36,066 nucleotides of DNA from Thermodesulfobacteriota bacterium (GCA_028282925.1 JANQGV010000239.1:1-36066), one strand, 5' to 3'; numbered from the stretch's first letter, positions 1 through 35,476 are shown. Program-made: numbers and translations. Notes: a model not told the origin generated them from the letters alone.

Positions 1-54
1 ATAAAAATAAATATTATTATAAATGTTTAAAATTAATAATAACCTGCATTGATA

Positions 55-132
55 AAGCCACACCCCGGGTAACCGGGGGCCGGAAAGTCACGGGTCCTAC
101 AGCAGCTTTTTTTGAAGGATAGCCGGATTGCC
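55..132 (+). promoter_or_regulatory. GEMM-I cyclic-dinucleotide riboswitch aptamer
   Basis: The leader of the giant secreted-protein gene matches the GEMM-I (c-di-GMP-I) fold. A 6-bp stem (63-68 with 73-78) is capped by a GTAA tetraloop of the GNRA class. It is followed by AAAGTC at 84-89, then ACGGGTCC (90-97), a variable loop, and GGATAGCCGGATTGCC ending at 132. These correspond to the conserved AAAGCC, ACGGGUC and AGCCGGGUUGCC blocks of this family. The bases before the first conserved GC are AAA, so the position that reads G20 in the Vibrio Vc2 aptamer may be A here. A at that position is associated with GEMM-Ib riboswitches that prefer 3',3'-cGAMP. One extra base in that strand makes the alignment uncertain. 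The family call is recognition from memory; ligand choice is inference. Confidence 0.8.
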
Positions 133-172
133 ACAGCATGTGTATGCATGTAACAGGCAGTCCGGCTTTTTT
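122..172 (+). terminator. Intrinsic terminator overlapping the riboswitch (expression platform)
   Basis: GCCGGATTGCC at 122-132 pairs with GGCAGTCCGGC at 156-166 (11 bp, one G-T pair), followed by six T at 167-172. The left arm is also the 3' strand of the aptamer, so ligand-bound aptamer and terminator hairpin exclude each other. This predicts that ligand binding favours read-through (an ON switch). The loop contains a CATG...CATG inverted repeat. The terminator ends about 28 nt before the chosen start codon at 201. Confidence 0.8.
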
Positions 173-200
173 ATTGCCTACCATCAAGGGGAGAGGTCAT

Positions 201-3200
201 ATGCATTACAGAAAAACTGTCATACTCACCATAACTATTATTTTGTGTGTCTTTTTCCAGGGTGCTGTTTTCGGCTCCAGCGGGGGCGGCCCGGCAAAGC
301 TGGTGTTCGATATCGACGATTCAGTCGGATTTAGCAGTTCTCCCGACGATAAGGTCAGTGTAAACGGGGTACTGTTCTTCTCAGCTACAACGTCAGCCAA
401 TGGCCGGGAGTTGTATAAAAGCTACGGAACCGCCGGCGGCACACGCGTTCTCAGGGATATCAACTCCAGCGGCGACGGCATTGAAACCAGTTCAAACGTT
501 CCCGTACTTGCCGTTATGGGAGATTTTGTCTACTTCCCTGCTAACCATGTTGCAGTTGGGGGCGGGGGCGACGGTGTTGAGTTGTTCCGTAGCGACGGTA
601 CGGCCTCCGGCACGGATATCGTCAAAAATATCAATGCCGGTGGAGATGGTCTTGATGGAGATAATACAGACTTTGCTGTTCTCAACAATGAACTGTACTT
701 CAGTGCTAACGATGGGTCCAGCGGCTGGGAACTCTGGAAATCCGACGGCACCGCAACAGGCACGGTTCAGGTAAAGGATATTTATAATAACGGCTCGTGG
801 AGCAGCAATCCCGCCAATCTGACGGTTATGGGCGGTACACTCTATTTTTCCGCCAACGATGGCACTGCCGGTATCGAGTTATGGAAATCCGACGGCACGG
901 CGGGAGGTACCACTCTTGTTAAAACTATCAATACTGATGGAGACAGTTCCCCCAGTAATTTGACGGTTATGGGCGGGATGCTTTATTTTGTCGCCAACGA
1001 TGGCGGTGGGATTGATTTGTGGAAATCCGACGGCACTGAGCCCGGCACGGTTAAGGTAAAAGATATCAATCCCGGCTTTATGTCCGATCTTACGGTTTCA
1101 GGAGGCAAGCTGTTTTTTGTGTGTGACGGTGGGATCACCGGCGAAGAGTTGTGGGTCAGCGACGGAACGGAAATCGGCACCTATCTGGTAGAGGACATCA
1201 ATGCCAACGGCAGCAGCTATCCTAGCGACCTTACCGATATGAATGGCATTCTCTATTTTTCAGCAGACGATGACTCAAATGGAGAAGAATTATGGCGGAG
1301 CGACGGTACAGAGTCCGGCACGTATATTGTTAAAGATATCTGTCCCACCTGTGGGGGTGGCCCTCAAAACATGGTCAATGCCGACGGCACCCTCTATTTT
1401 TCTGCCCAGGATGATATTTTCGATGGACACGAGCTTTGGAAAAGTGACGGTACCGAATCGGGTACTGTCCAGGTGCAGGATATAAATAGCAGTGGAAGCA
1501 GTTGGCCGAAAGATTTTCTTTATGCCGATGGCATCCTCTATTTTACGGCCACCCGCTCTACCAACGAAGGGGCAGAACTGTGGAAACTTGATATCGATCC
1601 GGCAGCCCCGGCAGCCCCGTTTGCCGACCAGGCGACTGTTCGTGATTCCGGAACCAATGCTTCTCAGTGCGCCATTATAGCCGACATCAATGGAGATGGT
1701 TCCATGGATGTGGTAGCTGCCAATCCAGGCGACGATAGTATTACATGGTACAGCGGCCCATCTCCCTGGTCGACGGAGGGTACTATTAGTAACCCCGATT
1801 TCACCAGTGGTGTAAATGATGTTGTGGCGTTAGATGTTGATAGTGATGGCAGACTTGACCTTGTGTCTGCAAATGTCGACGCAACCTTTTCTGGTATTTT
1901 TATGCACCGTAATTTAGATAATGGTACCACGTGGAACAGTTCGGAAATCATTGATCCTGGCTCTTGTTATGTTGTCCGTGTTGCTGATTTTGACAATGAC
2001 GGTGTTGTTGAATATGTGTATTCTACAGCCACCCAGGTTTTTTATCGTGACCCTCAGGTACCTCCAGCGGACTATACCGGTGCCGCTTCCGATCTGGCCG
2101 TGGCAGATATCAATCGCGACGGCACACTGGATTTTGTCATTGCCGATAAAACCAACGATAAGCTTGTTTTTGCATATTATAATGGATTAGGCTTGACTGA
2201 CCGGCAAATAGCTACACTGGCCTCAGAGCCGACGTCGGTTTTTACCGGCGACATCAATCGCGACGGCGATGTTGATATCTGTGCGGCATTCGGCAACAAT
2301 ATTACCTGGTATGCCAATATCAATAGCGGCTCAAACTTCAGCGCTGTTACGGTTACAACCTCAGCCGGCCAACCCCAAAAGGTGCGGGGGGCTGACGTTG
2401 ACAGTGACGGCGACCTCGATATTGTGGCCGCCCTTGCTGAAGACAACGGTGTTTTCTGGTATGAGAACACCGACGGTGACGGGACTTTCGGTCTGCCGCA
2501 ACTTCTTACCAGCGATGCCACAAACGCCGCCTGCGTTGCCGCAGGCGACCTTGATGGTGACGGCGATATAGATGTCGTCTCTGCCTCTCCTGATGACGAT
2601 AAGGTTGCCTGGTATGAGAATAAAACGATACACGGCAGTGCATTATTCGAAACACAGTCTCCCGAGGTGACTAATAATGCAAGCGGGGTTAACGCAGTGT
2701 ATGCCGCAGATATTGATGGTGATGGTGATCAGGATATTCTGTCTTCCTCAGAGGGTGACGATAAGATTGCCTGGTATGAAAATACAGATGGTGCGGGGAG
2801 TTTTGGATCACAGCAGGTTATTTCAACCTCTGCCGATCGAGCAAGGTCTGTGTATGCCGCAGATATTGATGGTGATGGCGACCTGGATGTGTTGTCTGCA
2901 TCATATTCAGACGATAAGATAGCGTGGTATGCAAACACTAATGGTGCCGGGACTTTTGGTTCTGAGCAGGTTATTTCTACTTCAGCAGACGTTGCATGGT
3001 GTGTGCATGCGGCGGATTTGGACAAAGACGGTGATGTTGATGTCATTTCGGCTTCAACCGGTGATAATAAGATAGCGTGGTATGAAAACACAAACGGCTT
3101 AGGAACATTCGGTGCCCAGCAAGTTATCTCGACTTCTGCAACCAATGCGCGATCTGTCTATGCAGCAGATATAGACCAAGATGGGGATATGGATATTGTC

Positions 3201-6200
3201 TCAGCTTCAAGTGGGGACGATAAAATAGCCTGGTATGAGAATACAGATGGTGCGGGGAGTTTTGGATCGCAGCAGGTCATTTCAACTACCGCCGATAGTG
3301 CCTATTCGGTTGTTGCAGCGGATATAGACAAAGATGGTGATATGGATGTCATTTCGGCTTCAACCGGTGATGATAAGATAGCGTGGTATGAAAACACGGA
3401 CGGTGCCGGGACCTTTGGTGCTCCGCAAAACATATCCCTTACCGCCGACAGTGCATATGCGGTCTATGCTGCAGACGCAGACGCAGACGCAGACGGTGAT
3501 GTGGATGTTTTTTCTGCATCAAGCTTAGACGGAAAAGTTGCCTGGTATGAAAACCAGGGGGGATCATGGGTGTCTGATAATATCACAATGTCAGGTGCTG
3601 CGCCTATGACAATCTATGCCGCAGACCTTGACGGCGACGGCGATATAGACGTTGTTTCCGGGTATTATAACACCGGTGAGATTGTCTGGTATGAAAACCG
3701 GGGCGGGCAGTTTGCGCTGGCAACCGAGAACGTAACCCCGCAAATGATAACTAACGGCGAAACAGCCGAATTTCTCAAGATTACCACTACCCATGAGGGC
3801 CGCGCGGGAGATTCTGCCCTGGCACTTACCTCTTTTGAGCTCTATTTTGATAGCGGCGATGATACGATGCCCCTTACATCGGCCGAGGCCAATGCTCTGA
3901 TTGAGAACCTGTATATATATTATGACAATGATACGGACGGTTTGTTTGACGGAACTGAAAGACTTGTTACCACGGTTGATACCCTTGCGTTGACGGGCGG
4001 CTCGACGGCCGTTGAACTGCCGTTTTCGGCTTCAGTGCAGATCGGCGGACCCGGCAGTAATATGGTCTACTTTGTTGTTGCGGAGTTGACTTCTAATGCC
4101 GGCAATCAGACACCAAGTAACCTCAGGATAACCCATGTTACCGAGGCATCCAGTACGGCCGAAGACGGAAACTACGGCAACCCTCTGCAACTGGAGTACG
4201 CACTCAATACACCCAGCGGCACGGCATATCCGCCCAGCACAACCACTACATCGACTCCGGCAACTACAACGGTTGGTGGAAGCAGCCCCGGCGGGCCCAG
4301 CGGAAGCACCCCTCCCGGTGATGCCACGACAACCACCACGGCCCCGGAACCACCGCCGCCGGGTGACGGCGATCCTGGAGGAGATGGCGGTCCAGGTACA
4401 GCCGGTCTGGGTGCAGATTTTACGGCCCTGCCGGTTGCGGGTACGGTCCCGCTTGCGGTGAGCTTTGTCGATATCTCCGACGGCGCTATTACCAGCTATG
4501 CCTGGGATTTCGGCGACGGCACCACAAGCAGTGAGGCCAATCCCGACCATGCCTACGTTGAAAGCGGCACCTTTACAGTTACCCTTACCGTAACGGGTGA
4601 AAGTGCAACCGATACTTTGACCATAGAAGACTTTATTACCGTTGATCCGTCGCCCCTGGCAGCCGGTTTTACCGCGGATGTGGTGAAGGGCAATGCGCCC
4701 CTTGCAGTTCAGTTCAGCGACACATCAACCGGAGCGCCGATATCATGGTCATGGAATTTCGGCGATGGCGGCAGCGATACGGCCCGGAACCCGGCCCATG
4801 CGTATACAGTGCCCGGCACGTACACGGTCAGCCTTGTGGCGTCCGATGCAGAGGGAAGCGACGCGATAGGTAAATACGGTTACATCGTGGTGACGGAAGA
4901 TGCCCCCGAGGCCGATTTCAGCGCCCGACCCACAACCGTTGATCAGGACGAAGAGGTACGCTTTACCGATGCCTCAACCGGTGATATTACCTCCCGGTTG
5001 TGGAATTTCGGCGACGGGCAGACCAGTGCCGAGCAGAACCCGCGCCATGGCTATGCGCTGCCCGGTACTTATGCGGTGTGCCTGACGGCAACCGGGCCGG
5101 AAGGCTCCTCGCGTAAGGTGCGTGAAGACTATATTATCGTGCAGCCCAAGCCGGGCACCTACACTGTTTCCGGCACCATAACCGGCGAAGTTACAGCCGG
5201 GATGGAGGTCTATATCAGCGGTACTCTGAACAGAGCGGTCCCGGTGGCGTCCGACGGTACCTATATCATTGAAGGGCTTGTGCCCGGAACCTACACCGTA
5301 ACGCCCCTGAAGCCGGGAATGGGGTTTGTTCCCTCGGCGGTGGGTGTGACCATAACGAACGAGGATGTGAGCGACATCGATTTCAATGTTGAAATTGTGG
5401 GTGGATTTATAACCCGTGCGGTGGCCGACCCCAGGGTGCTGATAGCCGAACAGGACAACGCAGTGACCTTTATTGCCCGGGTTATTCATAAAGAAGGTTT
5501 GATAAACATCGACACCATAGCCCTCGACCTGTCGCCCTTGGACGGTCCCGCGTCGGTTGTCATGCATGACGACGGCACCACCGGCGATGAAGTTGCCGGA
5601 GACGGAGTCTTCACCTGGTTCGGCACCGTTGTGCCCCTGCCCACACCCGGAGCCGTGCTGGTACCCTGCACGGCGGTGTCCGACGGCGGTCTGTACAGCT
5701 ATACGGCAACGGTGCAGGTTGAAGTGGTAGATACCATAGACGATGAACTGGGCGCAGGCGATACCCAGGAATACGGCATAACCAACAGCATCGGCGGCCA
5801 GGACCTGGTTATTGCCATCGGCTCGGGTCCCAGCGGCAGTGCCCGGATGACGGCTGCTGCCGAAGAAGGGCTTGTGCTGCAAATATTCAAACCCGACGGC
5901 ACGCCCCTCTTTGACGATTTGTTCCCCATGAGCGGCAGCATCAACGGTATAACCGTGCGTGACGCTGAAGCGGGGAGCTGGTCGTACCAGGTGACCAACC
6001 AGTCCGGCACCGCCATGTCTTTTTCCATGAAATCAAGCGGAGCCGGAACCGGCACAGTGATGGGGGCTGTAATAGATGCCCAGGACGGCAGCGGAATAGA
6101 CCATGCCACCATCAGCACCAATGTGGGCGGCAGCACGGTGACCCAGAACGGCTATTATGCCCTGCTGCAACCGGCCGGTTCGTTTTTAATCCAGGCCATC

Positions 6201-6695
6201 GAGCCCGAGTATGTCACGGCTTCATGCTCCATAACCCTTGCAGCCGGTACGTCCGTTGAGGCCAACATGGCCATGCTGGACAAAGCCTCGGCCCCGGCAC
6301 CGGATGAGAGCTGTTTCCTGTCGGATATCTTCGGCTTTGGAGATACGGCTAAACTGCAACTTCTGCGACGCTTCCGCGACACGGTGCTTGCCGAAACCCC
6401 GGTGGGCAAACAATATATCAGCCTGTATTATACCCACTCGCCGGAGATCAGCGGTATGCTGCTCACCAACAGTGCTTTGAGAGCGGAACTGTGGCATGGT
6501 GCTGTGGAACTGCTTCCCCTGGCGGTGAAAGCGGCTCGTGGTGAGCGTGTTGTTTTAAGCGGTGGAGCAGTAGATGCCCTGCAGGGTTGTCTGGAGGCAA
6601 TCAGGAAGCAGGCCGGGCCTAAGCTTGCCGGTGATATCGACGCCCTGCTGCTGAAGCTTGATACCGGCATGACCATGGGTGAACTGGTCAGGTAA
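201..6695 (+). CDS. Giant secreted ELWxxDGT/VCBS/PKD repeat protein
   Basis: A 2164-residue exported protein, probably a surface or matrix adhesin. The start at 201 is chosen over 138 because a GGGGAGAGG Shine-Dalgarno precedes it, it lies after the leader terminator, and it gives a clean signal peptide (about residues 1-25). Order: about nine ELWKSDGT-type repeats (about 69-460); many FG-GAP/VCBS repeats with Ca-binding-like DxDGDGDxD and WYEN motifs (about 490-1173); a Thr/Pro/Gly linker (about 1344-1400); three PKD domains with FGDG (about 1403-1648); a carboxypeptidase-regulatory-like domain; a choice-of-anchor-X-like domain (about 1736-1833); a second regulatory-like domain; and a tail (about 2035-2164) with LRRFRD and YYTHSPE. 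That tail resembles the CFIATAAYG C-terminal domain, but its first motif reads CFLSDIFGFG. Expression is probably set by the upstream riboswitch. The ligand of the protein is unknown. Confidence 0.9.
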   Translation: MHYRKTVILTITIILCVFFQGAVFGSSGGGPAKLVFDIDDSVGFSSSPDDKVSVNGVLFFSATTSANGRELYKSYGTAGGTRVLRDINSSGDGIETSSNVPVLAVMGDFVYFPANHVAVGGGGDGVELFRSDGTASGTDIVKNINAGGDGLDGDNTDFAVLNNELYFSANDGSSGWELWKSDGTATGTVQVKDIYNNGSWSSNPANLTVMGGTLYFSANDGTAGIELWKSDGTAGGTTLVKTINTDGDSSPSNLTVMGGMLYFVANDGGGIDLWKSDGTEPGTVKVKDINPGFMSDLTVSGGKLFFVCDGGITGEELWVSDGTEIGTYLVEDINANGSSYPSDLTDMNGILYFSADDDSNGEELWRSDGTESGTYIVKDICPTCGGGPQNMVNADGTLYFSAQDDIFDGHELWKSDGTESGTVQVQDINSSGSSWPKDFLYADGILYFTATRSTNEGAELWKLDIDPAAPAAPFADQATVRDSGTNASQCAIIADINGDGSMDVVAANPGDDSITWYSGPSPWSTEGTISNPDFTSGVNDVVALDVDSDGRLDLVSANVDATFSGIFMHRNLDNGTTWNSSEIIDPGSCYVVRVADFDNDGVVEYVYSTATQVFYRDPQVPPADYTGAASDLAVADINRDGTLDFVIADKTNDKLVFAYYNGLGLTDRQIATLASEPTSVFTGDINRDGDVDICAAFGNNITWYANINSGSNFSAVTVTTSAGQPQKVRGADVDSDGDLDIVAALAEDNGVFWYENTDGDGTFGLPQLLTSDATNAACVAAGDLDGDGDIDVVSASPDDDKVAWYENKTIHGSALFETQSPEVTNNASGVNAVYAADIDGDGDQDILSSSEGDDKIAWYENTDGAGSFGSQQVISTSADRARSVYAADIDGDGDLDVLSASYSDDKIAWYANTNGAGTFGSEQVISTSADVAWCVHAADLDKDGDVDVISASTGDNKIAWYENTNGLGTFGAQQVISTSATNARSVYAADIDQDGDMDIVSASSGDDKIAWYENTDGAGSFGSQQVISTTADSAYSVVAADIDKDGDMDVISASTGDDKIAWYENTDGAGTFGAPQNISLTADSAYAVYAADADADADGDVDVFSASSLDGKVAWYENQGGSWVSDNITMSGAAPMTIYAADLDGDGDIDVVSGYYNTGEIVWYENRGGQFALATENVTPQMITNGETAEFLKITTTHEGRAGDSALALTSFELYFDSGDDTMPLTSAEANALIENLYIYYDNDTDGLFDGTERLVTTVDTLALTGGSTAVELPFSASVQIGGPGSNMVYFVVAELTSNAGNQTPSNLRITHVTEASSTAEDGNYGNPLQLEYALNTPSGTAYPPSTTTTSTPATTTVGGSSPGGPSGSTPPGDATTTTTAPEPPPPGDGDPGGDGGPGTAGLGADFTALPVAGTVPLAVSFVDISDGAITSYAWDFGDGTTSSEANPDHAYVESGTFTVTLTVTGESATDTLTIEDFITVDPSPLAAGFTADVVKGNAPLAVQFSDTSTGAPISWSWNFGDGGSDTARNPAHAYTVPGTYTVSLVASDAEGSDAIGKYGYIVVTEDAPEADFSARPTTVDQDEEVRFTDASTGDITSRLWNFGDGQTSAEQNPRHGYALPGTYAVCLTATGPEGSSRKVREDYIIVQPKPGTYTVSGTITGEVTAGMEVYISGTLNRAVPVASDGTYIIEGLVPGTYTVTPLKPGMGFVPSAVGVTITNEDVSDIDFNVEIVGGFITRAVADPRVLIAEQDNAVTFIARVIHKEGLINIDTIALDLSPLDGPASVVMHDDGTTGDEVAGDGVFTWFGTVVPLPTPGAVLVPCTAVSDGGLYSYTATVQVEVVDTIDDELGAGDTQEYGITNSIGGQDLVIAIGSGPSGSARMTAAAEEGLVLQIFKPDGTPLFDDLFPMSGSINGITVRDAEAGSWSYQVTNQSGTAMSFSMKSSGAGTGTVMGAVIDAQDGSGIDHATISTNVGGSTVTQNGYYALLQPAGSFLIQAIEPEYVTASCSITLAAGTSVEANMAMLDKASAPAPDESCFLSDIFGFGDTAKLQLLRRFRDTVLAETPVGKQYISLYYTHSPEISGMLLTNSALRAELWHGAVELLPLAVKAARGERVVLSGGAVDALQGCLEAIRKQAGPKLAGDIDALLLKLDTGMTMGELVR
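3471..3494 (+). repeat. In-frame hexanucleotide tandem repeat (4 x GCAGAC)
   Basis: Four perfect copies of GCAGAC lie inside one VCBS repeat of the giant secreted protein and encode alternating Ala-Asp. The neighbouring repeats have a single copy at this place, so the array inserts residues at the edge of a Ca-binding-like loop. Because the unit is 6 bp, slippage would change length without breaking the frame. Confidence 0.9.
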
Positions 6696-25795: not shown

Positions 25796-25834
25796 AAAGA
25801 AAAGCCCCGGGTGGAAAGCAGGGGGCTTTTCTTG
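25796..25834. terminator. Bidirectional intrinsic terminator after the large chelatase-like gene
   Basis: AGAAAAGCCCC (25798-25808) pairs with GGGGCTTTTCT (25822-25832), with a loop of 13 nt. The A-rich side becomes a T-rich tract on the minus strand. It lies 20 nt past the stop of the 813-residue chelatase-like gene. The rest of the 254-bp gap up to the FkbH-like gene is AT-rich with no coding frame. Confidence 0.8.
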
Positions 25835-25854: not shown

Positions 25855-28296
25855 TTACCAGGCAAAAGGCCAGAACAGCAGGCGTGGTGTTACCGTTACC
25901 GGGCTGCCAAGGGATGACCGTCCGGAAAAGTCCATGGACTCAAACCGGTAATAATAAGTGCTAGAGTTTTTTACGCCCGTATCCTTAAAAGAATAAACCG
26001 AACCGGGGCCTTTAGAAGAAATCAGAGCGCTGTTTACCTTTGTATATTCGCCGTCTTCAGAGTCGGCCCGGAAAATATTGAACCCATAGGTGTCGATTTC
26101 AGATTCGGTTGTCCAGTATATCCGGGCCTTATTGGAGCCCGGCACCGCAACGATGGATTTAATTTCTGTTAGGGAAACAGCCTGAACCCCGGCCCGGAAG
26201 AGACCCAGAACCTTGGTCTTGCACGAGACCAGCCCATCCTGCACTGATTCTTTACCGATAAGGTCCCAGCCCTTGCTTACGTGGTTGTATATATAGACGT
26301 TCACGTTGCCGCCGGCTGCTGATGCGGCATCAAAAGGGATGGTCACGGTTACATCACGATTAAAAAAGGTACGATACGGCCCAAAATAAACCGCCGGACC
26401 TGCCAGCGTAGCATTGTCCATTGCCGGAGGGTCGCTCAAATAGCCGATGTTGATTACCGTGTCTTCCCACATACAGTCGTTGGTATCTGTGGGATCGTTA
26501 ACCGGAACGGCGGTTTCAGGGGTAAAGCCTTCGGGCCGGTCGGGATACGGGTCGGCCGGAATGGTAATTTTGGCCCCCGCTATCGTACTGGACATTGCCG
26601 TTACTTCCACGCTCCCGCCGGATAGTTTTGTTACCTTCTGTGAAGCTTCGATAAGGGGTTCTTCCCCTTCGGGGTACAGGCCGAACCGCTCGAGTGCTCC
26701 CCTCAGCACTACGTAATATGCCGTAGCAAACTCCTCGGCCACATCGCTGTAGGAAGGCGCAACGGTTATGCGGGCCACGGCATCCCGGCCGTCACAGCTT
26801 ACCTCAGCGCCGTCACTATCTTCGCAATAGGTGTTGGCGTAGATGCCGGCTTTCAGGTTATCAAGGGGGGCTATGGGCATACCGTTGATTTCCTGCATGC
26901 GGAAAATGGTATCCAGGTTGTCATAGTTCCAGTGGCAGGGGGCAATAATAATCTTGTCAAGGCCGTCTTCTTTGGCAAGATCAAGCACATCGCGTACGTT
27001 GCTGAAAACGGTTTCTCCGCCATAGCCTTTCAGGTCGATGTCGTTACCCAGGCCATAGGCATAAAAACTGTCTTCCCGTAAATCGCTTTGCTTGCCGCCT
27101 TTGGCAAACACAAGAGTATAGGTGTCGCCAAATTCCCTTATCAGGGCTTCCTTCAATGAAAGATAGTTGAGATAGGCGTTATCGTGGTAGACCTCTTTAC
27201 TCCAGGGGTGGGGGGCACCGAATGAGCCGCTGGTTTCCTGCTTGCCCCAGGTAAGCCCTCTGGTAACATAGATGAAGCCGATGGTACTCCCCGCAGGATG
27301 AGCCTCAATATAGGGCTTCAGGTTGCGAATATTCATCAAATTAAATTCGGGAGTTCTGCCGACCTGCCGGGAGAAATGTATTTCCATAGAGTCAAGCACG
27401 CCCAGTTCACACAGGCGTTCTTTTATGTAATTGCCGGTCATGAAATTCAAGGCATAATTGTTGTAATCGGTGGTCTCCCGTGCCAGCAGCATTTTGGTAA
27501 AGCCCTCATCCGCAAATTCTTCAGCCACGTCATCCATCATTTTTGTTTCACCGGGAACGGCCGTGTATTGACCGTACCTGATGTCGATCCTGTGGCCGAA
27601 GGCGTCCTCCATCAACTGTTCAAGGTAAGCGTCCTGCTCTTCTACCGCTGGTGGAGGAACATGGGGCCCTGTTGGGTCGGTCGAGGCGCCCATAATGCCG
27701 TAATAGCGGATGTAGAGCGGTGGGCCGGCCTCTACCATGTCATGAATGCCATTGGGTAAAGGGTTGTCCCAGTCGCCGATTCGATACCAGCCTTCAAGGT
27801 AATCTTCACCGGTCCGGGGGTCTACGGGGTATGAAAGATCTCCGGTGTGACCGGCAACATCTTTCAGCGGTGTAACGGGCGTGCCGTCGGGAATTTCGGC
27901 CGGAGAAAGTGATGCCACATCCGGATGGGGGTGTACGTATTCATCGTTCTCAAAATAATAAATGCCGTGGAAGTCAAAAAAAAGTTTGTCCTCTTCAACT
28001 AAAAACGTAATGCCGAAGGGGATCATTCCTATGTGGGAAGCATAGGGATACTCGCCGACATGGCCGATTTTGCAGGGCTGTCCCTCATACTCGGTCAGAT
28101 CACCGATACGGGGATAGTCGCTGCTGGTCCAGGCATAGTCGAAATTGTAAGCCGCAGGCATTCCCCACCCCGTGATCAAAACGGCAATGGTATCATCGAC
28201 CGAGGCATTATCCGATGCCGCCGCGCTGAGGCCGGGAACAGAGAGAGACAGGAAAAAAGATAGACAAAAAACAAGCGTGCGTAAAAAGTCGTTCAT
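25855..28296 (-). CDS. Large exported ferrochelatase-superfamily-like protein with Fn3-like tail
   Basis: An 813-residue exported protein with signal peptide (about 1-27, ending LSAAA). The opening TIAVLITGWGMPAAYNFDY parallels VLITALGQPEQYDFPF of the lipoprotein encoded at 29037-30437. Later segments can also be paired: IGFIYVTRGLTWG (about 339-351) with IILTRHGFP, and CHWNYDNLDTIF (454-465) with SENTDTVY. In ferrochelatases these correspond to the SAHGLP and SDHIETLYE motifs. Here the His is replaced by Arg346, but a new Cys454-His455 pair is present near the second motif. Residues 500-690 form a beta-rich region, and 705-795 a fibronectin-III-like domain with YWTTESEIDTYGFNIFRA. mntP lies 27 nt upstream and should be co-transcribed. 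Chelatase ancestry is inferred; activity is doubtful. An AAGGAGG Shine-Dalgarno supports the start. Confidence 0.6.
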   Translation of the reverse strand: MNDFLRTLVFCLSFFLSLSVPGLSAAASDNASVDDTIAVLITGWGMPAAYNFDYAWTSSDYPRIGDLTEYEGQPCKIGHVGEYPYASHIGMIPFGITFLVEEDKLFFDFHGIYYFENDEYVHPHPDVASLSPAEIPDGTPVTPLKDVAGHTGDLSYPVDPRTGEDYLEGWYRIGDWDNPLPNGIHDMVEAGPPLYIRYYGIMGASTDPTGPHVPPPAVEEQDAYLEQLMEDAFGHRIDIRYGQYTAVPGETKMMDDVAEEFADEGFTKMLLARETTDYNNYALNFMTGNYIKERLCELGVLDSMEIHFSRQVGRTPEFNLMNIRNLKPYIEAHPAGSTIGFIYVTRGLTWGKQETSGSFGAPHPWSKEVYHDNAYLNYLSLKEALIREFGDTYTLVFAKGGKQSDLREDSFYAYGLGNDIDLKGYGGETVFSNVRDVLDLAKEDGLDKIIIAPCHWNYDNLDTIFRMQEINGMPIAPLDNLKAGIYANTYCEDSDGAEVSCDGRDAVARITVAPSYSDVAEEFATAYYVVLRGALERFGLYPEGEEPLIEASQKVTKLSGGSVEVTAMSSTIAGAKITIPADPYPDRPEGFTPETAVPVNDPTDTNDCMWEDTVINIGYLSDPPAMDNATLAGPAVYFGPYRTFFNRDVTVTIPFDAASAAGGNVNVYIYNHVSKGWDLIGKESVQDGLVSCKTKVLGLFRAGVQAVSLTEIKSIVAVPGSNKARIYWTTESEIDTYGFNIFRADSEDGEYTKVNSALISSKGPGSVYSFKDTGVKNSSTYYYRFESMDFSGRSSLGSPVTVTPRLLFWPFAW

Positions 28297-28323
28297 GGTT
28301 TCCCTCCTTTTTGTTTGGACATA

Positions 28324-28905
28324 CTAAAACATTCCCGCGAAAACGCCGTGCTCACGCAGGATGTTGATGCCGATACAAAGAAGCACTATGCCTCCGACAA
28401 CTTCGGCATAGCTACCCACATGGGACGAAGCCCCAACCTTTTTGCCCAGCCCCAGGCCGATTGCGGTAAACAGAAAAGCGACTATACCAATGATGAGAGC
28501 AGGAAACCAGATTGAAATTTTCAGAATTGAGAGACTTAAACCGATCGCCAGGGCGTCAATGCTGGTGGCAACCGAGAGCATAACCAGGGAAAAGCCTTTG
28601 GTTGGGTCGCGTCTTTGCTTTTCAGGGTCATCCGGCTTGAAAGACTCGATAATCATATGCCCGCCTACACAGGCAAGCAGTCCGAAGGCTACCCAGTGAT
28701 CAAAACGTTCTATTAAGGACCGGACCGTCAACCCGGCGGCCCAGCCGATAACCGGCATCATGGCCTGAAAAAAGCCGAAGTGCCAGGAAAGCCGAAGGGT
28801 CTGTCGTGTAGAAACGGTTTTCAGATGTATTCCGGAAGCAATTGCAACGGCGAAGGCATCCATTGCAAGAGCTACTGCTATTGCAATACTGCTTACTAGT
28901 GACAT
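28324..28905 (-). CDS. mntP: Manganese efflux pump MntP
   Basis: A 193-residue inner-membrane protein with six predicted helices and the two-fold repeated acidic motifs of the MntP family: AMDAFAVAIASG (about 14-25) in the first half and SIDALAIGLSL (about 115-125) in the second. Their Asp residues are needed for Mn(II) export in characterised members. The length is typical. It is 27 nt upstream of the large chelatase-like gene and probably co-transcribed with it. I see no yybP-ykoY manganese riboswitch fold upstream. A terminator for the preceding unit lies between 28985 and 29015, so mntP needs its own promoter between about 28906 and 28980. Confidence 0.93.
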   Translation of the reverse strand: MSLVSSIAIAVALAMDAFAVAIASGIHLKTVSTRQTLRLSWHFGFFQAMMPVIGWAAGLTVRSLIERFDHWVAFGLLACVGGHMIIESFKPDDPEKQRRDPTKGFSLVMLSVATSIDALAIGLSLSILKISIWFPALIIGIVAFLFTAIGLGLGKKVGASSHVGSYAEVVGGIVLLCIGINILREHGVFAGMF

Positions 28906-28980
28906 ATTGTATGGTTACTGTTTAGGGTCTCTCTTATTATACATCGTGAATTTTATTTTATCTACATGGTTTTGTGCAAT

Positions 28981-29015
28981 AAAAAAAGCCCATATGCCTG
29001 GGGCATATGGGCTTT
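28981..29015 (-). terminator. Intrinsic terminator after the chelatase lipoprotein gene
   Basis: A perfect 14-bp stem (28985-28998 with 29002-29015) has a 3-nt loop. It is followed on the minus strand by a run of seven T (28981-28987 complement). It lies 22 nt beyond the stop of the chelatase lipoprotein, and separates that transcription unit from mntP. Confidence 0.9.
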
Positions 29016-29036
29016 CCGGTGTTTTCCAGTGTTGTA

Positions 29037-30437
29037 TTATCCTTTGCCGGAACCTGAAACCAGTTGCGGCCAGGCTTCTCCGCGCAAAATCGTGGCGACG
29101 GCATCGAAAATACCCTTTGCTACATGGGGCTGATATCGTGGTCCGACCGGCGTTCCGGCGACAATTATCCTGGTTTTGTCATGTGTGAGTTCCGTTCTAT
29201 ACGGGTGGGTGAAATCGGGATAAGGAACCATCCCCTCGTACTCAAAATGAATGGGCTCCAGCGCCTCTTCACGTGCGCAGTATACCGTGTCCGTGTTCTC
29301 ACTCATAAAGTCGACCAGCACGAAAACGATGTTGTCGTATTTGTCCTTCAGTCCGCGCTCAAGTGCTTCGGCGGAAGAGAGGCGTTTGTCTTCCGGGTCG
29401 TCATCCTCGCCCGAAAACTCGGTGTCGGCATAAACAACATCGGTTGTTTTGCTGTTGATGGCCGCTTCCACTTCCTTTTGCAGATTGTCGTAGTATGCCG
29501 GGGCCAGCTTGTGGAAGGGCTCGCCGGGCATTTCGGGGAAACCGTGGCGGGTAAGTATGATAAGGTTTTTACTGTCCTCGGGAAGTTTGGATACCTCATC
29601 TGAGGCCATTTTTACAAGCGCTTTCCGGTAACTGGCATATGCGCCGACCGAGGGCGAATAGATTACCTTGGCCCTGCCATGCACAAAGTGTTCGATTTCG
29701 ACAAAGAGCGCATTGAACTGCTCCAGGTTGGAGTAAACCGGAAAAAGGTCGCACACAACGATGGTTTCCACCTTTTCCTTGAGCAAAGCTTCAATGGCCT
29801 TTTCCACAGTTTCCGGGTACATTGCCCAGGCGGTTTGCACCGGCGTTTTGGGAAAGGACTGTGATACCAGGCTTTCAACTTCCTTGAACAACGACAAGTG
29901 CTGTTGTACATAGGGCACTTTCTGGCCCGGCATCCGGGGGTAGTGTGATGCCGCCATCTTTATGGCCGTTTTTTCAGCGATGTCGACAAAGCCGTTTTTC
30001 TTTTTGAGTAAAAAATGTCCGGCACCGCCTTCTTCGCGGGGCTTGACCCATTTCACCTCAAGTTTTGCATAGGGTGTTCCGTCTTCACTCACGGTTTTCC
30101 CATAGCAGTCCATCAGCGTTTTAGGGGTAAATTCTTCAGATGCAAACAGGTTTTTAGGATCACGCAGCACGGTGCCGCCGTCGCGCAGGATTATAAATTT
30201 CAGAAGGGGCGGAAAGGCTGCGTTGAAAATCTGGTTCAGATAGCGATCGAAAAACGGAAAATCGTACTGCTCAGGCTGGCCGAGGGCGGTGATGAGCACC
30301 CCGGCTTTCCCTTTAACCGCAGTATCCTGATTGAGGTACTTTTCGAAATTTTTGTTGTCCTGTTTGACCGAGCAGGCGCTCAACAGCAGCCCGCACAGGC
30401 AAATGATGCCGGTTGTTCGAGACAAAAACGCTTTCAT
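29037..30437 (-). CDS. Ferrochelatase-like lipoprotein
   Basis: A 466-residue predicted lipoprotein (lipobox LSAC with Cys22) whose mature part resembles class II chelatases, which insert Fe or Co into tetrapyrroles. The N-terminus has VLITALGQPEQYDF, like the LLNLG opening of ferrochelatase. The middle has MYPETVEKAIEALLKEKVETIVVCDLFPVYS, matching the helix before the PLYPQYS motif. ILTRHGFPEMPGEPF carries His298 at the place of the SAHGLP catalytic His. SENTDTVY (379-386) aligns with SDHIETLY, with Asp383 in place of the catalytic Glu. The predicted site is therefore mostly kept and lies outside the cytoplasm. A precedent is the periplasmic cobaltochelatase CbiK-P of Desulfovibrio. It is the third gene after the porin and the Asp/His-rich protein (28-nt gap); AGAGGTG precedes the ATG. 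Metal and substrate are unknown. Confidence 0.72.
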   Translation of the reverse strand: MKAFLSRTTGIICLCGLLLSACSVKQDNKNFEKYLNQDTAVKGKAGVLITALGQPEQYDFPFFDRYLNQIFNAAFPPLLKFIILRDGGTVLRDPKNLFASEEFTPKTLMDCYGKTVSEDGTPYAKLEVKWVKPREEGGAGHFLLKKKNGFVDIAEKTAIKMAASHYPRMPGQKVPYVQQHLSLFKEVESLVSQSFPKTPVQTAWAMYPETVEKAIEALLKEKVETIVVCDLFPVYSNLEQFNALFVEIEHFVHGRAKVIYSPSVGAYASYRKALVKMASDEVSKLPEDSKNLIILTRHGFPEMPGEPFHKLAPAYYDNLQKEVEAAINSKTTDVVYADTEFSGEDDDPEDKRLSSAEALERGLKDKYDNIVFVLVDFMSENTDTVYCAREEALEPIHFEYEGMVPYPDFTHPYRTELTHDKTRIIVAGTPVGPRYQPHVAKGIFDAVATILRGEAWPQLVSGSGKG

Positions 30438-30465
30438 GGCTCACCTCTTTAAAATAATTATTCTC

Positions 30466-31038
30466 TTAGTGATCATGATCATCGTCGTCATGATCATCTC
30501 CATCGTCATCATGGTCGTCCCCATCATCGTGATCATCGTCGTCATGATCGTCCTCATCGCCGGGGGCAGCAAGGGAAAAGCGTATTGAGCACTCGGCCGG
30601 CATTTCAACCGATCCGCTGACCTCGGTGATCATGGCCCCGACCAGTGCAAAACCAAAGTCTCCTCCGATGGGTATTTCAAACGAGGCTTCAAAGGGTGTT
30701 TCGCCGGAGGAAATGATCGGCGTGACCCCGGCCCCGGCACTAACGGCCAGACCACTCAAGGCAAAACTGATCACCTCGCCGAAATCAAGATCGGCATCGG
30801 CGCTGAGCGAAATGCTGAGGGTTTCGGATTCACCGGCCGTGAATACCAGGAAGTTTTCAACGGGATAGAACTTTGTAATGTCGAACACTTTGGATATGTG
30901 AAACTCCCGTTGCACCTGTTCGCCCGGTGTGAGCACGATAAAATCCTGCAGCAGATGTTCTTCGGCGCTAACCGATGCCGGAATAACAGAGATACAAAAA
31001 GCAAGAATTACAGCAATGTATATAACAGTTTTTTTCAT
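30466..31038 (-). CDS. Exported beta-rich protein with Asp/His-rich metal-binding tail
   Basis: A 190-residue protein I do not recognise. The start at 31038 is chosen over 31044 because the AAAGGAG Shine-Dalgarno lies 7 nt before it but only 1 nt before the other. A signal peptide spans about 1-24 (cleavage after SVSA). The middle (about 25-155) is beta-rich with small residues and no cysteine apart from one near residue 150. The last about 33 residues are almost only Asp and His in DDHDD-type units, ending DDHDH: a low-complexity metal-binding tail as in zinc and nickel chaperones. It sits between the porin and chelatase lipoprotein genes with gaps of 54 and 28 nt. A periplasmic metal buffer or carrier is the best inference. 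Confidence 0.72.
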   Translation of the reverse strand: MKKTVIYIAVILAFCISVIPASVSAEEHLLQDFIVLTPGEQVQREFHISKVFDITKFYPVENFLVFTAGESETLSISLSADADLDFGEVISFALSGLAVSAGAGVTPIISSGETPFEASFEIPIGGDFGFALVGAMITEVSGSVEMPAECSIRFSLAAPGDEDDHDDDDHDDGDDHDDDGDDHDDDDHDH

Positions 31039-31092
31039 TGTCATACTCCTTTCGTTGGGCTAAGTAAAGATTTTATTTTATTGTCAAGCTCA

Positions 31093-32424
31093 TCAATGGT
31101 CATGGTCGTCATCTTCGTCAAGGTGTTCATGCCGGCCCAGGGTGAAGACCCACTGAAGAAGAATTTCGTTTGAATCTTTGTCGTGGTTTCGCTGACTGTT
31201 TTTAAACTGTACCCGAAGGCGGTTATTATCGGTATACTGGTGTGTCAGGTATGCCGAGTATTCGGTTATGTGGTCGCGCGATTGCAGGGGTGTTTCTGCA
31301 TAATCATACCGGGCACCCAGGATCCAGCGAGGAGCAAACTGGTAGTCGATAAAGCTGTACATGCCGTAGGAACGCTCCCAGCTGTGGTCTTCTTCGATCT
31401 GGGCACTGATAAATTCCGACTGCCAGCGGATCCGCTTGTGTTCATCCCGGAAGGGGCGCCAGATCAGGGTCAGATCACCGCCCTGGTAGTAAAAGCGGGG
31501 TGACTCTTCATCGTTTTCAAAACGTCCGGAAAGACCCGACAGGCCCCATTTGATTTCCATGTGGTCCGACAGATCGATATCGTTTCGCAGGCGGGCAATG
31601 TAGACGATATCATCGTAGTCCTTGAGCCGCCGGTCTTCATCATCGTGACCATGGCCGTCGTCGTCTCCATCGTGGTCATGGCGGTTGCCGTTCAGAGCCT
31701 GCAGGCTGTATTTAATGGGCGAGCCCCACAGCGAGGGGAACGATCCGGCAATGCCGACACCCTCGTCAATGTAACCCTCTTCGCCGAGATATTCGCGGTA
31801 TACCGCCGGGTAGTCGACCTGGGGCAGCGCATGGGGGTGAATGGTATTCAACAGACCGAAGTCCGCCCGGAATTTACCGAATTTCAAATCCGTATGGAAC
31901 GGCAGTAGTTCTTCAACAATCAGGTAGGCTTCTTCCAGCTCTACATCATCATCATGATAGGCAATGTTGGCATACGCTTTGCCGATACCGTCGATCTCAC
32001 CCATAAAATCGATATCTACACCCCGCAGGTCAAAGCGGTCTTCCGTGCTGCGGGTGTGGTGATCATCGGAAACGTTGGCGACAAAATCACCGGTTACACT
32101 GATGTTAGGCGTAATCCGGTCCAGTAAGCCATCGAAAGAGAGCATTTCGCTATCACTATGCTCTTCATCGTGGTCATCTTTTGCCGAGGCAATATGACCT
32201 TCTTCTTCATGCTCGTCTTCTTTGCTGTGCTCCCGCAGTTCTTTGATGGTTTCATTTTGCTGTTTAATAATGCTTTTCAGGTCGCCGACCAGATTTTTCA
32301 GCTCCTGCATGTCTTTGCGCATCTGCTCCATCTCCGCCTTGCTGGCATACTCTGCGGCACTTGCGGGCAGGCACAAAGCGAGAAGCAGAAAAGCGGTCAT
32401 GAAAAAAACGGTTTTCAAACGCAT
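31093..32424 (-). CDS. Outer-membrane porin-like protein with His/Asp-rich segments
   Basis: A 443-residue outer-membrane protein with signal peptide (about 1-23, ending PASA). A coiled-coil with Met/Glu/Lys heptads (about 28-68) is followed by a His/Glu/Asp-rich segment (about 68-92, with EDEHEEEGH and DDHDEEHSD). A beta-barrel of alternating amphipathic strands continues to the end, and a further metal-binding-like loop in the barrel reads HDHDGDDDGHGHDD. The C-terminus ends HEHLDEDDDHDH rather than the usual terminal aromatic residue, so the last strand is probably WVFTLGRHEH. The fold resembles the OprP/phosphate-selective or DUF-type trimeric porins with a coiled-coil neck. It is the first gene of a three-gene unit. 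A metal-ion uptake pore is inferred from composition and neighbours. Confidence 0.78.
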   Translation of the reverse strand: MRLKTVFFMTAFLLLALCLPASAAEYASKAEMEQMRKDMQELKNLVGDLKSIIKQQNETIKELREHSKEDEHEEEGHIASAKDDHDEEHSDSEMLSFDGLLDRITPNISVTGDFVANVSDDHHTRSTEDRFDLRGVDIDFMGEIDGIGKAYANIAYHDDDVELEEAYLIVEELLPFHTDLKFGKFRADFGLLNTIHPHALPQVDYPAVYREYLGEEGYIDEGVGIAGSFPSLWGSPIKYSLQALNGNRHDHDGDDDGHGHDDEDRRLKDYDDIVYIARLRNDIDLSDHMEIKWGLSGLSGRFENDEESPRFYYQGGDLTLIWRPFRDEHKRIRWQSEFISAQIEEDHSWERSYGMYSFIDYQFAPRWILGARYDYAETPLQSRDHITEYSAYLTHQYTDNNRLRVQFKNSQRNHDKDSNEILLQWVFTLGRHEHLDEDDDHDH

Positions 32425-32571
32425 TTTCTCATCCTCCTTCAGGTAAAGAAAATATTTACATTTTTAAATTAAATCTGTTCCGGGCAGCGAATACACCGCT
32501 GGTAAAAATCCGGTCACAGGTCAATAGTATTGTACGTGCTGTTGTATTACGAATAGTAGAAAGAGAAAGGA

Positions 32572-32922
32572 TTAAAGCGGTGGAGCCCTGCTTTTGCGCC
32601 GGGATGTAAGAAGCAGTTTTTTAACCGGCTTGGGAGCTGTTTTGGGCCGGCAGACGGACAGTCCCGTGAGCAGCAGGAAAAGCACCAGGGCCGGTATGCA
32701 CAACAGGCTGGGCAGGGAAAGGCTGTTGCGGCACAGCTTGCCGTCCTTGACCCACTTGCAGATAGCACTGTGCTCCAGCGGATGGACATCATGCAGGCCA
32801 TCGTCAAAATGGATTATGCACGCAAAGGTGGCGCAGGTCATCATGATGACAATTGCCGAGCACAGGGGGTGGATAACCCGGCTTTTTTTACTGAGCGCTT
32901 TTGTGGGAAGTGCGGTTAACAT
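32572..32922 (-). CDS. Small membrane protein with His/Asp-rich loop
   Basis: A 116-residue protein I do not recognise. Hydrophobic segments at about 19-37 and 68-88 flank a loop with HFDDGLHDVHPLEHSAIC and a second Cys ten residues on, suited to binding a metal. The C-terminus is strongly basic, so it should be cytoplasmic. No Shine-Dalgarno precedes the ATG; instead a perfect TATAAT lies only 9 nt before it, so the mRNA may be leaderless. It is upstream of the porin gene by 147 nt on the same strand. Overlapping frames on both strands have no comparable features. It could belong to the small DUF2946-like metal-transport-associated proteins, but I cannot show that. Confidence 0.6.
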   Translation of the reverse strand: MLTALPTKALSKKSRVIHPLCSAIVIMMTCATFACIIHFDDGLHDVHPLEHSAICKWVKDGKLCRNSLSLPSLLCIPALVLFLLLTGLSVCRPKTAPKPVKKLLLTSRRKSRAPPL

Positions 32923-32931
32923 AATGAATAA

Positions 32932-32960
32932 ATTATACCAAAATCGGAGGGGTACTGCAA
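32932..32960 (-). promoter_or_regulatory. Sigma-70-type promoter for a leaderless start
   Basis: On the minus strand TTGCAG (32955-32960) and the perfect -10 hexamer TATAAT (32932-32937) are spaced by exactly 17 nt. Transcription would begin about 7 nt after the -10, which is 2-3 nt before the ATG at 32922. The -35 matches only TTG of the consensus. Confidence 0.55.
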
Positions 32961-33049
32961 CTATGGTTTTAAGAGGTATTCCAGATACATATACACCTGG
33001 ATGCCGGCCGGGCTCAAAGGGACATATTTGTTGGATTTACAGAAAAGTA

Positions 33050-33223
33050 CTATCTGACCGAATCAAAAACGGCATCCGCTGCACTGCGAACGGTTTGGGC
33101 AACACCAGTCTGGCGGGCATTGTGGGGGCCTTCCATAGAATCACAGCCGGGGTCGGCAATGGCCTTCAGATACATCATACACATAACAACCGTTAGTACC
33201 ACCACCAATAATCGTTTGAACAT
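33050..33223 (-). CDS. 57-residue exported peptide
   Basis: A short frame starting MFKRLLVVVLTVVM has a hydrophobic signal segment (about 4-23). The mature part contains DPGCDSMEGPHN with one Cys and one His, then an amphipathic helix ending FDSVR. AGGATC lies 6 nt before the ATG, an acceptable Shine-Dalgarno. It stands 127 nt upstream of the small membrane protein on the same strand and begins the metal-handling block. Upstream lies the CACTTAAC-type block at 33265-33308. No family is recognised. The signal peptide and ribosome site support a real gene, but the length makes chance possible. Confidence 0.5.
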   Translation of the reverse strand: MFKRLLVVVLTVVMCMMYLKAIADPGCDSMEGPHNARQTGVAQTVRSAADAVFDSVR

Positions 33224-33512: not shown

Positions 33513-34544
33513 TTATTCTACGGTAAAGGAAACACCGCCGGCTCCGTCCACCTGCACATCGTATGTTCCGGCTTCCACCGCAGGATCAACGATCAGGAGT
33601 GCCAGAACCCTGTTCTGAATGCCAAAGATGGTTATGGAAGTAACGGCGTCCGTGCCCAGGTCGATTTGACTCTGAGGGGTGAACTTACAATCGTCTCCTC
33701 CGGTAATAACAACCAGAGCAAAACCGGGAAGAATGGTCGGGGCGCTGATGGAGTCGGTGCTGATGTCGGTCAGGGCACAGCCGCCGGCAGCGTCACCGGC
33801 CGTAATGGTAAACTCGGCCTGGCAGTTTACCTCCGGATCCATAACACCTTCGGGGTCGGTTACCTTGATATTGCAGGTAGCATTATCTGCTGTTCCGGCA
33901 ACGGTGATGGATGCGGTAATGGTATTGTTGTCTTCGTTAACGGAATATTCATTTATAGTAACAGCATCGGCACAGTTTTTGTTAACACTTACTTCAAGCT
34001 TTTCAATGTCTTCCCGGCTGAGTCCCAGCAGGTCTTCTCTTGCCAGGGTGACAACTACGTCGATGGTTTTGTCCTCTCCGGCAACGGTCACACCGGCAGG
34101 TTCAATGGTAAAGCAGGGCTGTTCGGGACCGGCGTCCGAAACAATCTCAAAAGCGGCCTTACAGTCGAAAGGCGGCTCGCCGACACCTTCGGGGTCTTCA
34201 ATCTTCAGGTTGCAGGAGGTGCTTTCGGCGGTTGCGTCAACGGTAATGTTGACCACCAGCTGATTATTCTCAATATTGGCGGTGGTGCTGTTGACGCTGA
34301 TATAGTCAAGGCAGTTTTTGTTGGGGGTCACCACCAGCTTTTCAAGATCTTCGTTGGTGAGAGCCAGCAGGTCTTCGCGAATAAGGGTCAGGGCAACGTC
34401 CATCGTTACATCGTTTTCACCGTCGACCGTCACCTGGGCCGGCTCAACCGTATAACAATCCTCATCGGCTGCAACTGCCGGGAGCAGACCAATAGATACA
34501 ACCATAAGTAAGGCGGTTACTACTGCTAAAGCTGTTCTTTTCAT
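33513..34544 (-). CDS. Secreted protein with two tandem homologous domains
   Basis: A 343-residue exported protein with no recognised family. The start at 34544 is chosen because AAAGGAAC precedes it and the signal peptide begins there (MKRTALAVV, cleavage after AVAA); the longer frame overlaps the upstream gene. Two copies of an about 105-residue domain follow (about 27-135 and 140-247). Each starts CYTVEPA/CFTIEPA, contains REDLL...EDLEKL and NKNC, then SCNLKI/TCNIKV, DPEGV and a final DCKAAF/NCQAEF, so cysteines are placed identically, probably as disulfides. The last about 90 residues form an IPT/TIG-like beta domain ending GGVSFTVE. It lies 38 nt after the DUF1566 lipoprotein gene and is probably co-transcribed with it. 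A structural or binding role at the surface is likely. Confidence 0.8.
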   Translation of the reverse strand: MKRTALAVVTALLMVVSIGLLPAVAADEDCYTVEPAQVTVDGENDVTMDVALTLIREDLLALTNEDLEKLVVTPNKNCLDYISVNSTTANIENNQLVVNITVDATAESTSCNLKIEDPEGVGEPPFDCKAAFEIVSDAGPEQPCFTIEPAGVTVAGEDKTIDVVVTLAREDLLGLSREDIEKLEVSVNKNCADAVTINEYSVNEDNNTITASITVAGTADNATCNIKVTDPEGVMDPEVNCQAEFTITAGDAAGGCALTDISTDSISAPTILPGFALVVITGGDDCKFTPQSQIDLGTDAVTSITIFGIQNRVLALLIVDPAVEAGTYDVQVDGAGGVSFTVE

Positions 34545-34582
34545 GCTCGTTCCTTTCTCTGCGTTACCTTCGTTTTTGCACG

Positions 34583-35476
34583 TTACTGCCCCGGGCATAC
34601 GGCCCGGGCATGATATTCCAGGTACTTCATGCCGTAATGGTTCAGGGCAATTATCCTGGACTGAACAGTTCCTGAAGCGGGGGACCCCATGAAATAGATG
34701 TGGCAGGCAGCATAGGTGAAATCGACATAGGTTGTTCCGGACCAGTAATACCAGGCAACGGTGTTGGGAAAAAAGTCCGTATTGATTGCCGGGTTATAGC
34801 GGCCCGAACCCAGGAGCGTTTCAAGCTCATCACAGTCGGGCAGCCGCCAGGATGAAAACCCTCCGTATTCTTCAGTGTTCAACTCACTAATAAAATCTTC
34901 AGTGTCTGTTCCCTCTCCTTCTGTTCCGGCATCACCTCCATTCGTATTTTCGTTACCGTCATACCAGGTATAGGTATTGTCGGCATCATGCGGGTTGGCA
35001 TAATCGGGGGCGCCGTCTTTATGCTGTTTTACTTCCCAGACAAGGTCTGTTGTCGCGTCATACACCATGGTCCAGTCGGTTGCATCATCAGGCAGTTCCG
35101 CTCCCAGTGAATCCAGCTTTCTATATCGGGAGGAATTGATGTGCAGCGTTATTGTATCTGAAATCGATTCCTCGTATTGATCAATGATGGTGCAGGTTAC
35201 CATATAGCTTCCCTTGCGGTCATAGGCATGGGTAACCGCAGGTCCGGCGGCCGTTGCATTGTCGCCGAAATCCCATTTTACTGTATACGAATCAGGTTCA
35301 TCTCCAGGAAGCCGGGCCGCAAATCCAATATCCCGGCCCCCGTTAAAAACAGCTCCGCTACGCGGGAACGCAATCCCACGTTCGTCACCGCCGGGCAAAA
35401 CGCACCCCGGAAGTATTCCGAGCAGGCCAAGGACGATGCAGAAAGAGAAGAATTTCAGATGCATTTTATCGACTGC
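34583..35476 (-). CDS. PKD and DUF1566 domain lipoprotein
   Basis: A 297-residue predicted lipoprotein. The ATG at 35476 (MAVDKMHLKFF) follows GAGGGGGTG and leads to a lipobox ILPGC (Cys about 26); the longer frame to 35551 would cover a terminator hairpin. A PKD domain (about 40-125) shows VKWDFGDNATA and THAYDRKGSYMVTC. A DUF1566 (Lcl C-terminal-like) domain (about 130-297) begins TDWTMVYDATTDLVWE and contains the hallmark SSWRLPDCDEL, then YYWSGTTY and ARAVCPG. Such proteins are anchored at the cell surface and thought to be binding proteins. The duplicated-domain gene follows downstream after 38 nt. Confidence 0.85.
   Translation of the reverse strand, partial: AVDKMHLKFFSFCIVLGLLGILPGCVLPGGDERGIAFPRSGAVFNGGRDIGFAARLPGDEPDSYTVKWDFGDNATAAGPAVTHAYDRKGSYMVTCTIIDQYEESISDTITLHINSSRYRKLDSLGAELPDDATDWTMVYDATTDLVWEVKQHKDGAPDYANPHDADNTYTWYDGNENTNGGDAGTEGEGTDTEDFISELNTEEYGGFSSWRLPDCDELETLLGSGRYNPAINTDFFPNTVAWYYWSGTTYVDFTYAACHIYFMGSPASGTVQSRIIALNHYGMKYLEYHARAVCPGQ

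Follow-up and report, generated by a model that had tools for sequence, protein, structure and literature searches.

A candidate orphan zinc-type outer-membrane module beside a separate MntP unit in a Thermodesulfobacteriota bacterium

Do neighbouring genes for exported and membrane-bound proteins with metal-related features form one system, or several? The question is raised by positions 25,855 to 33,223 of a 36,066-nucleotide stretch of DNA from a Thermodesulfobacteriota bacterium (GCA_028282925.1 JANQGV010000239.1:1-36066; the whole stretch is called the window here). A first-pass annotation, made from the sequence alone, had read seven consecutive minus-strand genes in this region as a single extracytoplasmic metal-handling island. 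Homology supports six of the seven as real genes, in place and on strand, but the island itself does not hold together: the homologues of a ferrochelatase-like lipoprotein, of MntP and of an 813-amino acid (aa) exported protein are scattered, and a terminator lies within it. The best reading of the locus is an orphan outer-membrane zinc-type module with a separate MntP unit beside it. The module takes up the upstream half, which encodes a membrane protein, a porin-like protein and an exported partner of the porin. Comparative sequence analysis makes it probable, if well short of certain, that this half is an orphan paralogue of a module that elsewhere accompanies the importer ZnuABC. The reading is preferred because a paralogous operon in the same genome includes ZnuABC genes and because ZnuA lies downstream in 22 of 30 loci of the porin family. 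What can be defended as a finding is an orphan module of zinc type together with a new porin-partner family.

A porin family encoded with ZnuA

The central member of the module is a 443-aa porin-like protein (31093..32424; minus strand, as for all genes of the locus) with a signal peptide, a coiled-coil N-terminus and His/Asp loops. No curated Pfam or NCBIfam family covers it. A β-barrel is inferred only, because barrel-family matches, to Porin_O_P and BBP2, are given by its relatives alone and are borderline. Profile A1, built from eight porins with the window porin among its rows, was run against 297 genomes of the phylum and has matches in 32. Thirty loci reach an E value of about 1e-17 or lower, and in 22 of them ZnuA is encoded directly downstream of the porin and on the same strand. 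It lies no more than about 250 bp from the match in 21 of these; in the other, on contig C120 of the window's own genome, the gene for a tailed protein stands between. The window porin as sole query also finds ZnuA-linked members (G017, G021 and C120; E 1e-11 to 1e-29). Genes of the comparison loci were called by a simple longest-open-reading-frame rule, and the class genomes are mostly fragmented metagenome-assembled genomes (MAGs), in which contig ends cut several loci.

Contig C120 carries a paralogous pair of porin and tailed protein. The operon reads, in order, DUF2946-like protein, porin, tailed protein (tail DDHDHDDDDHDDDDHDDDHDDHDHDDDHDH), ZnuA, ATP-binding cassette (ABC) ATPase and ABC-3 permease. 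Its ZnuA aligns best with that of Synechocystis and has His at the three aligned ligand positions. The genome has further ZnuA genes on contigs C48 and C230. Upstream of 6022 in the fetched locus (L082), the C120 operon is preceded by an apparent tRNA-gene 3' end (GAGTTCGAGTCTCACCACCGGCACCA), a kind of site where integration is common.

The first gene of the module encodes a 116-aa membrane protein (32572..32922), which is DUF2946-like by its position and its C-terminal RAPP motif. Homologues with 29% (G005) and 24% (G001) identity share the motif and are encoded directly upstream of orthologous porins, and a small RAPP-ending protein precedes most ZnuA-linked porins in the neighbourhoods read. 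The window protein has no match to DUF2946 (PF11162) in Pfam; three of its counterparts match this family below the cut-off (19.2 to 20.6 vs 23.7). Clusters of His and Asp, formerly ascribed to most of the seven gene products, exceed those of shuffled sequences in three: the membrane protein (7 of 20 residues, p 0.0005), the porin (12 of 20, p 0.002) and the tailed partner (18 of 20, reached by none of 2000 shuffles). Clustering in the two chelatase-like proteins is not above shuffling (p 0.24 and 0.74).

In the proposed working of the module, the porin would provide a channel, and scarce Zn2+, or another divalent metal like it, would be attracted by its acidic and His loops. The partner protein, itself exported, would dock on the porin by its β-sandwich and capture the metal at the periplasmic side with its Asp/His tail. 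The DUF2946-like membrane protein may assist or sense, and a ZnuABC-type importer encoded elsewhere would carry the metal over the inner membrane. This is close to the earlier suggestion of a porin that admits a metal and an Asp/His protein that buffers it; comparative genomics favours zinc, and the scheme would apply to the upstream half only. The best guess for the cargo is zinc or a zinc-like divalent ion, with linkage to ZnuA genes pointing to zinc itself.

Four observations weigh against a zinc import module. (i) There is no ZnuABC beside the window copy, where the partner and then the lipoprotein genes follow the porin in place of ZnuA, or beside its orthologues in G001, G002, G005 and G008 (53–59% identity, each with a DUF2946-like gene directly upstream). 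A further orthologue, in G006, sits at a contig end; in G002, G006 and G008, ZnuA is on another contig. (ii) No convincing Zur or Fur box of the E. coli, Geobacter or Desulfovibrio type was found upstream of the module. (iii) The porin gave no relative among solved structures and no homology to solved porins. (iv) A second G001 copy, which a contig end cuts short, comes after a metal-efflux operon. The order there is outer-membrane channel, adaptor, CusA/CzcA-family pump (TIGR00914, 1059 bits), P-II-like protein, DUF2946-like protein and porin.

The G001 locus also supports an alternative to zinc import, in which the orphan module would work in metal efflux or resistance, or would handle some metal besides zinc (Cd, Co, Ni, Cu or Mn). 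The separation of the window's clade from ZnuABC would fit such a role. Loci for zinc efflux, moreover, can include DUF2946 proteins: Caulobacter CC2720, which has an upstream Zur-type site, adjoins the Zur-responsive czr zinc-efflux genes (PMC4176598). However, the porin family is mostly tied to ZnuA, and this includes the paralogue in the same genome with the same tailed partner; efflux pumps, in addition, already supply an outer-membrane channel of their own. Efflux or a different metal is regarded as unlikely.

Known outer-membrane access proteins for ZnuABC include ZnuD-type TonB receptors and, in mycobacteria, the accessory porin MspD (PMC13098993). Common to these systems and the present one is a metal-linked outer-membrane protein that is encoded with ZnuABC or serves it. 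The window protein differs in being porin-like with no TonB-receptor signature above cut-off, in having a separate Asp/His-tailed partner and in being encoded away from ZnuABC. Another parallel is psp, a set of Fur-regulated hypothetical porins of delta-proteobacteria for which ferrous iron has been proposed (PMC545781). These porins likewise show weak similarity to PF07396 and likewise had their metal assigned from gene context, but they are linked to feoAB, whereas the window porin family is linked to ZnuABC. The zinc section of the same paper reports znuABC in these bacteria, in passages that mention no linked porin. Apart from TonB receptors, little is known of how zinc passes the outer membrane. 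If the zinc reading is right, a phylum-wide, ZnuABC-tied porin family with a separate Asp/His-tailed partner would represent a TonB-free zinc route.

The Asp/His-tailed porin partner

The partner gene (30466..31044) encodes a 192-aa exported protein with a β-sandwich core and a tail in which 27 of the last 30 residues are Asp or His. The same type of tail ends its paralogue in the C120 ZnuABC operon. The family is uncatalogued and is the newest part of the finding. Homologues (family profile A2) were found in this class only (8 of 17 class genomes; the 6 matching genomes among the 297 of the phylum also belong to it), with a conserved core in the alignment. The surroundings could be read for 15 members, and in 13 cases a same-strand neighbour gene encodes a known or probable outer-membrane barrel. 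These neighbours are four Porin_5 proteins, one Porin_O_P protein, one alginate-export barrel, two zinc-type porins, four porin-sized coiled-coil proteins with no Pfam barrel match and one that is split and unverified. Two partner loci (C18 and G003:C150) also hold, by eye, apparent phosphate PstS genes. Tails with 27 to 30 Asp/His in the last 30 residues are restricted to the two members beside zinc-type porins; the others have 0 to 4.

An AlphaFold2 (AF2) model of the partner has a confident all-β core (predicted local distance difference test, pLDDT, mostly above 85) and a low-confidence tail. A fold search of this model against the PDB gave generic β-sandwich matches, with a template modelling (TM) score of at most 0.38 on the query, and no functional lead. 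The distribution of barrels and tails permits a more general proposal, which is tentative and on balance not favoured. The β-sandwich family may be a modular porin partner, in which one core docks phosphate-, alginate- and zinc-type barrels and the C-terminus is adapted to the cargo. The Asp/His tail would then be reserved for the zinc type and would relay metal from the barrel to ZnuA. Were this true, porins would work with exported partners suited to what they carry.

ZrgA of Vibrio and Pseudomonas is a zinc-binding protein with a His-rich loop (PMC9820375). It resembles the partner in being exported, in its flexible His/acidic stretch and in its link to a zinc transporter. The partner was nevertheless rejected as a ZrgA: the NCBIfam equivalog NF047873 gives 13.5 bits vs 185, through the low-complexity tail only, and the ZrgA core is ferredoxin-like, whereas that of the partner is all-β in the AF2 model.

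The ferrochelatase-like lipoprotein

The next gene (29037..30437) starts 28 bp after the partner gene and encodes a 466-aa lipoprotein, whose LLSAC lipobox is visible in the sequence. It matches the ferrochelatase family PF00762 (8e-11, 41.9 bits vs a cut-off of 27), and its family aligns with canonical HemH (hhalign E 7.7e-13). The catalytic roles of a His and a Glu in HemH are established. The His aligns to His298 of the lipoprotein (LTRHGFP), and the Glu position is occupied by Asp383 (SENTD); both residues are invariant in all 17 aligned members. The lipoprotein belongs to the HemH family by profile and retains the catalytic His, but differs from HemH in its export, in about 140 extra residues, in Asp for Glu and in a score of 38 bits vs an equivalog cut-off of 124.6. 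Its family has no match among PDB sequences and would constitute an additional exported ferrochelatase relative. The CbiK-type periplasmic chelatase of Desulfovibrio is an exported class II chelatase from a related bacterial group; in neither Pfam nor NCBIfam did a window protein match CbiK.

Because the gap to the partner gene is 28 bp, the lipoprotein gene is probably co-transcribed with the module here. A single transcript would suit a second alternative, in which the lipoprotein is a working part of the locus: an exported chelatase or dechelatase that, acting jointly with porin and partner, would insert metal into a tetrapyrrole or remove it. The conserved His, with Asp replacing Glu, is consistent with such activity. 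No canonical HemH was found in the nine genomes of family f1, and the second-closest relative of the lipoprotein, in G008, has a convergent ZnuABC at a distance of about 2 kb; the closest (G003:C88) is beside ApbE. The wider distribution of the family makes this alternative improbable. In related genomes the order of DUF2946-like gene and porin gene is kept, but relatives of the lipoprotein are never found beside a porin or an Asp/His-tailed protein, and none adjoins MntP or the 813-aa protein. Their commonest setting is an operon for MarR, two membrane proteins, aldehyde ferredoxin oxidoreductase, the chelatase-like protein, exported flavodoxins and an FrhB-like protein, and some stand alone. 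There is no tetrapyrrole gene near the window copy, and the common neighbours of relatives in Proteobacteria, mostly alpha/beta hydrolases, give no tetrapyrrole link. Judged by these neighbourhoods, the lipoprotein is not part of the module elsewhere.

Relatives with above 50% identity come only from uncultured Thermodesulfobacteriota or 'Deltaproteobacteria' and similarly labelled MAGs; those at 25–32% are from Alpha- and Gammaproteobacteria, Bacteroidales and others. The MarR/aldehyde ferredoxin oxidoreductase operon is conserved in the class (L022 2482–11548; also L019, L020, L023 and L024), and one of its two membrane proteins has 4Fe-4S domains. Distant relatives near alpha/beta hydrolases are found in Alpha- and Gammaproteobacteria (L201–L224) and on contig C289 of the window's own genome (L027).

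The MntP unit and the flanks

From the membrane protein gene onward, the intergenic gaps are 147, 48, 28, 131 and 27 bp. The 131-bp gap between the lipoprotein gene and mntP holds a strong intrinsic terminator (28985..29015; AAAGCCCATATGCCCCAGGCATATGGGCTTTTTTT on the minus strand), followed by a promoter-like site (28936..28964; TAGATA-17-TATAAT), which with 10 of 12 matches is the best in the region. Two transcription units are therefore probable, one from the membrane protein (or porin) gene to the lipoprotein gene and one from mntP to the gene for the 813-aa protein. Sigma-70-like promoter matches in the region number 18, vs 12.8 (sd 3.1) in shuffles, which is barely above chance. A second intrinsic terminator follows the 813-aa gene (25796..25834), where the sequence shows the hairpin AAAAGCCCC...GGGGCTTTTCTTTT. 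Each of the two had been noted in the first-pass annotation and takes the form of a minus-strand hairpin with a T-tract after it.

The second unit opens with an MntP-family membrane protein (28324..28905), which matches PF02659 with 185.7 bits vs a cut-off of 24.4 (5.9e-55) and falls below the stricter NCBIfam equivalog (119.5 vs 214). No manganese riboswitch was found before mntP in Rfam. In seven other class genomes the surroundings of MntP lack the window partners, with one exception: in G005 a chelatase relative of 30% identity is encoded two genes upstream. This locus (L235 2696–5151) has the chelatase relative, an 89-aa open reading frame (ORF) and MntP in succession on one strand, and is the sole other proximity of chelatase-like protein and MntP seen.

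Starting 27 bp after mntP, the last gene (25855..28296) encodes the 813-aa exported protein. Of the two exported chelatases originally proposed, the lipoprotein passes the family threshold and this one is a remote relative. Its alignment with the lipoprotein family (hhalign 78.7%, E 1.7e-5) scores 51.5, where 60 column shuffles reach 27.1 at most, and is collinear, including an N-terminal VLIT.G.P motif. The protein has no PF00762 match, reaches 2.2% with HemH in hhalign and has VTRGLTW, with no His, at the catalytic position. A ZU5-like region and then an FN3-like domain make up its C-terminal part. The latter, of about 100 aa (25855–26180), recurs at dozens of places in the genome (the 813-aa query gives 46 matches, the majority of them to this domain) and in relatives, and is probably a shared anchoring or sorting domain. 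An AF2 model of the protein (pLDDT 46) was discarded. The 813-aa family is found in contexts other than that of the window. Some of its genes form tandem pairs (L095 4602–9853, L093 8431–14289), and some members of these pairs end in a Ser/Asp-rich stretch instead of the FN3-like domain. MntP and the 813-aa protein, set off by the terminator before mntP, look like a separate unit of apparently unrelated neighbours of the module.

At the other end of the locus, first in transcription order, is a doubtful gene, a 57-aa ORF with a signal-like N-terminus (33050..33223). A homologue was sought in all fetched loci and none was found; it may be a chance ORF and is probably outside the module. A single metal and tetrapyrrole system that takes in all seven genes is very improbable: the single strand, short gaps, several exported proteins and three His/Asp clusters are outweighed by the scattered homologues, the strong internal terminator, chelatase-like proteins with no metal-ligand clusters and this non-conserved ORF.

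Two features outside the locus may be added. Just upstream, an exported repeat protein (33513–34598, minus strand) matches the heme/iron-binding NEAT domain below the threshold (2.7e-5, 25 bits vs 32.8). At the far end of the window, a c-di-GMP-I-GGC riboswitch aptamer (48–136, plus strand; 65.1 bits, above gathering) directly precedes the gene for a 2185-aa exported repeat/PKD-type protein (138–6695).

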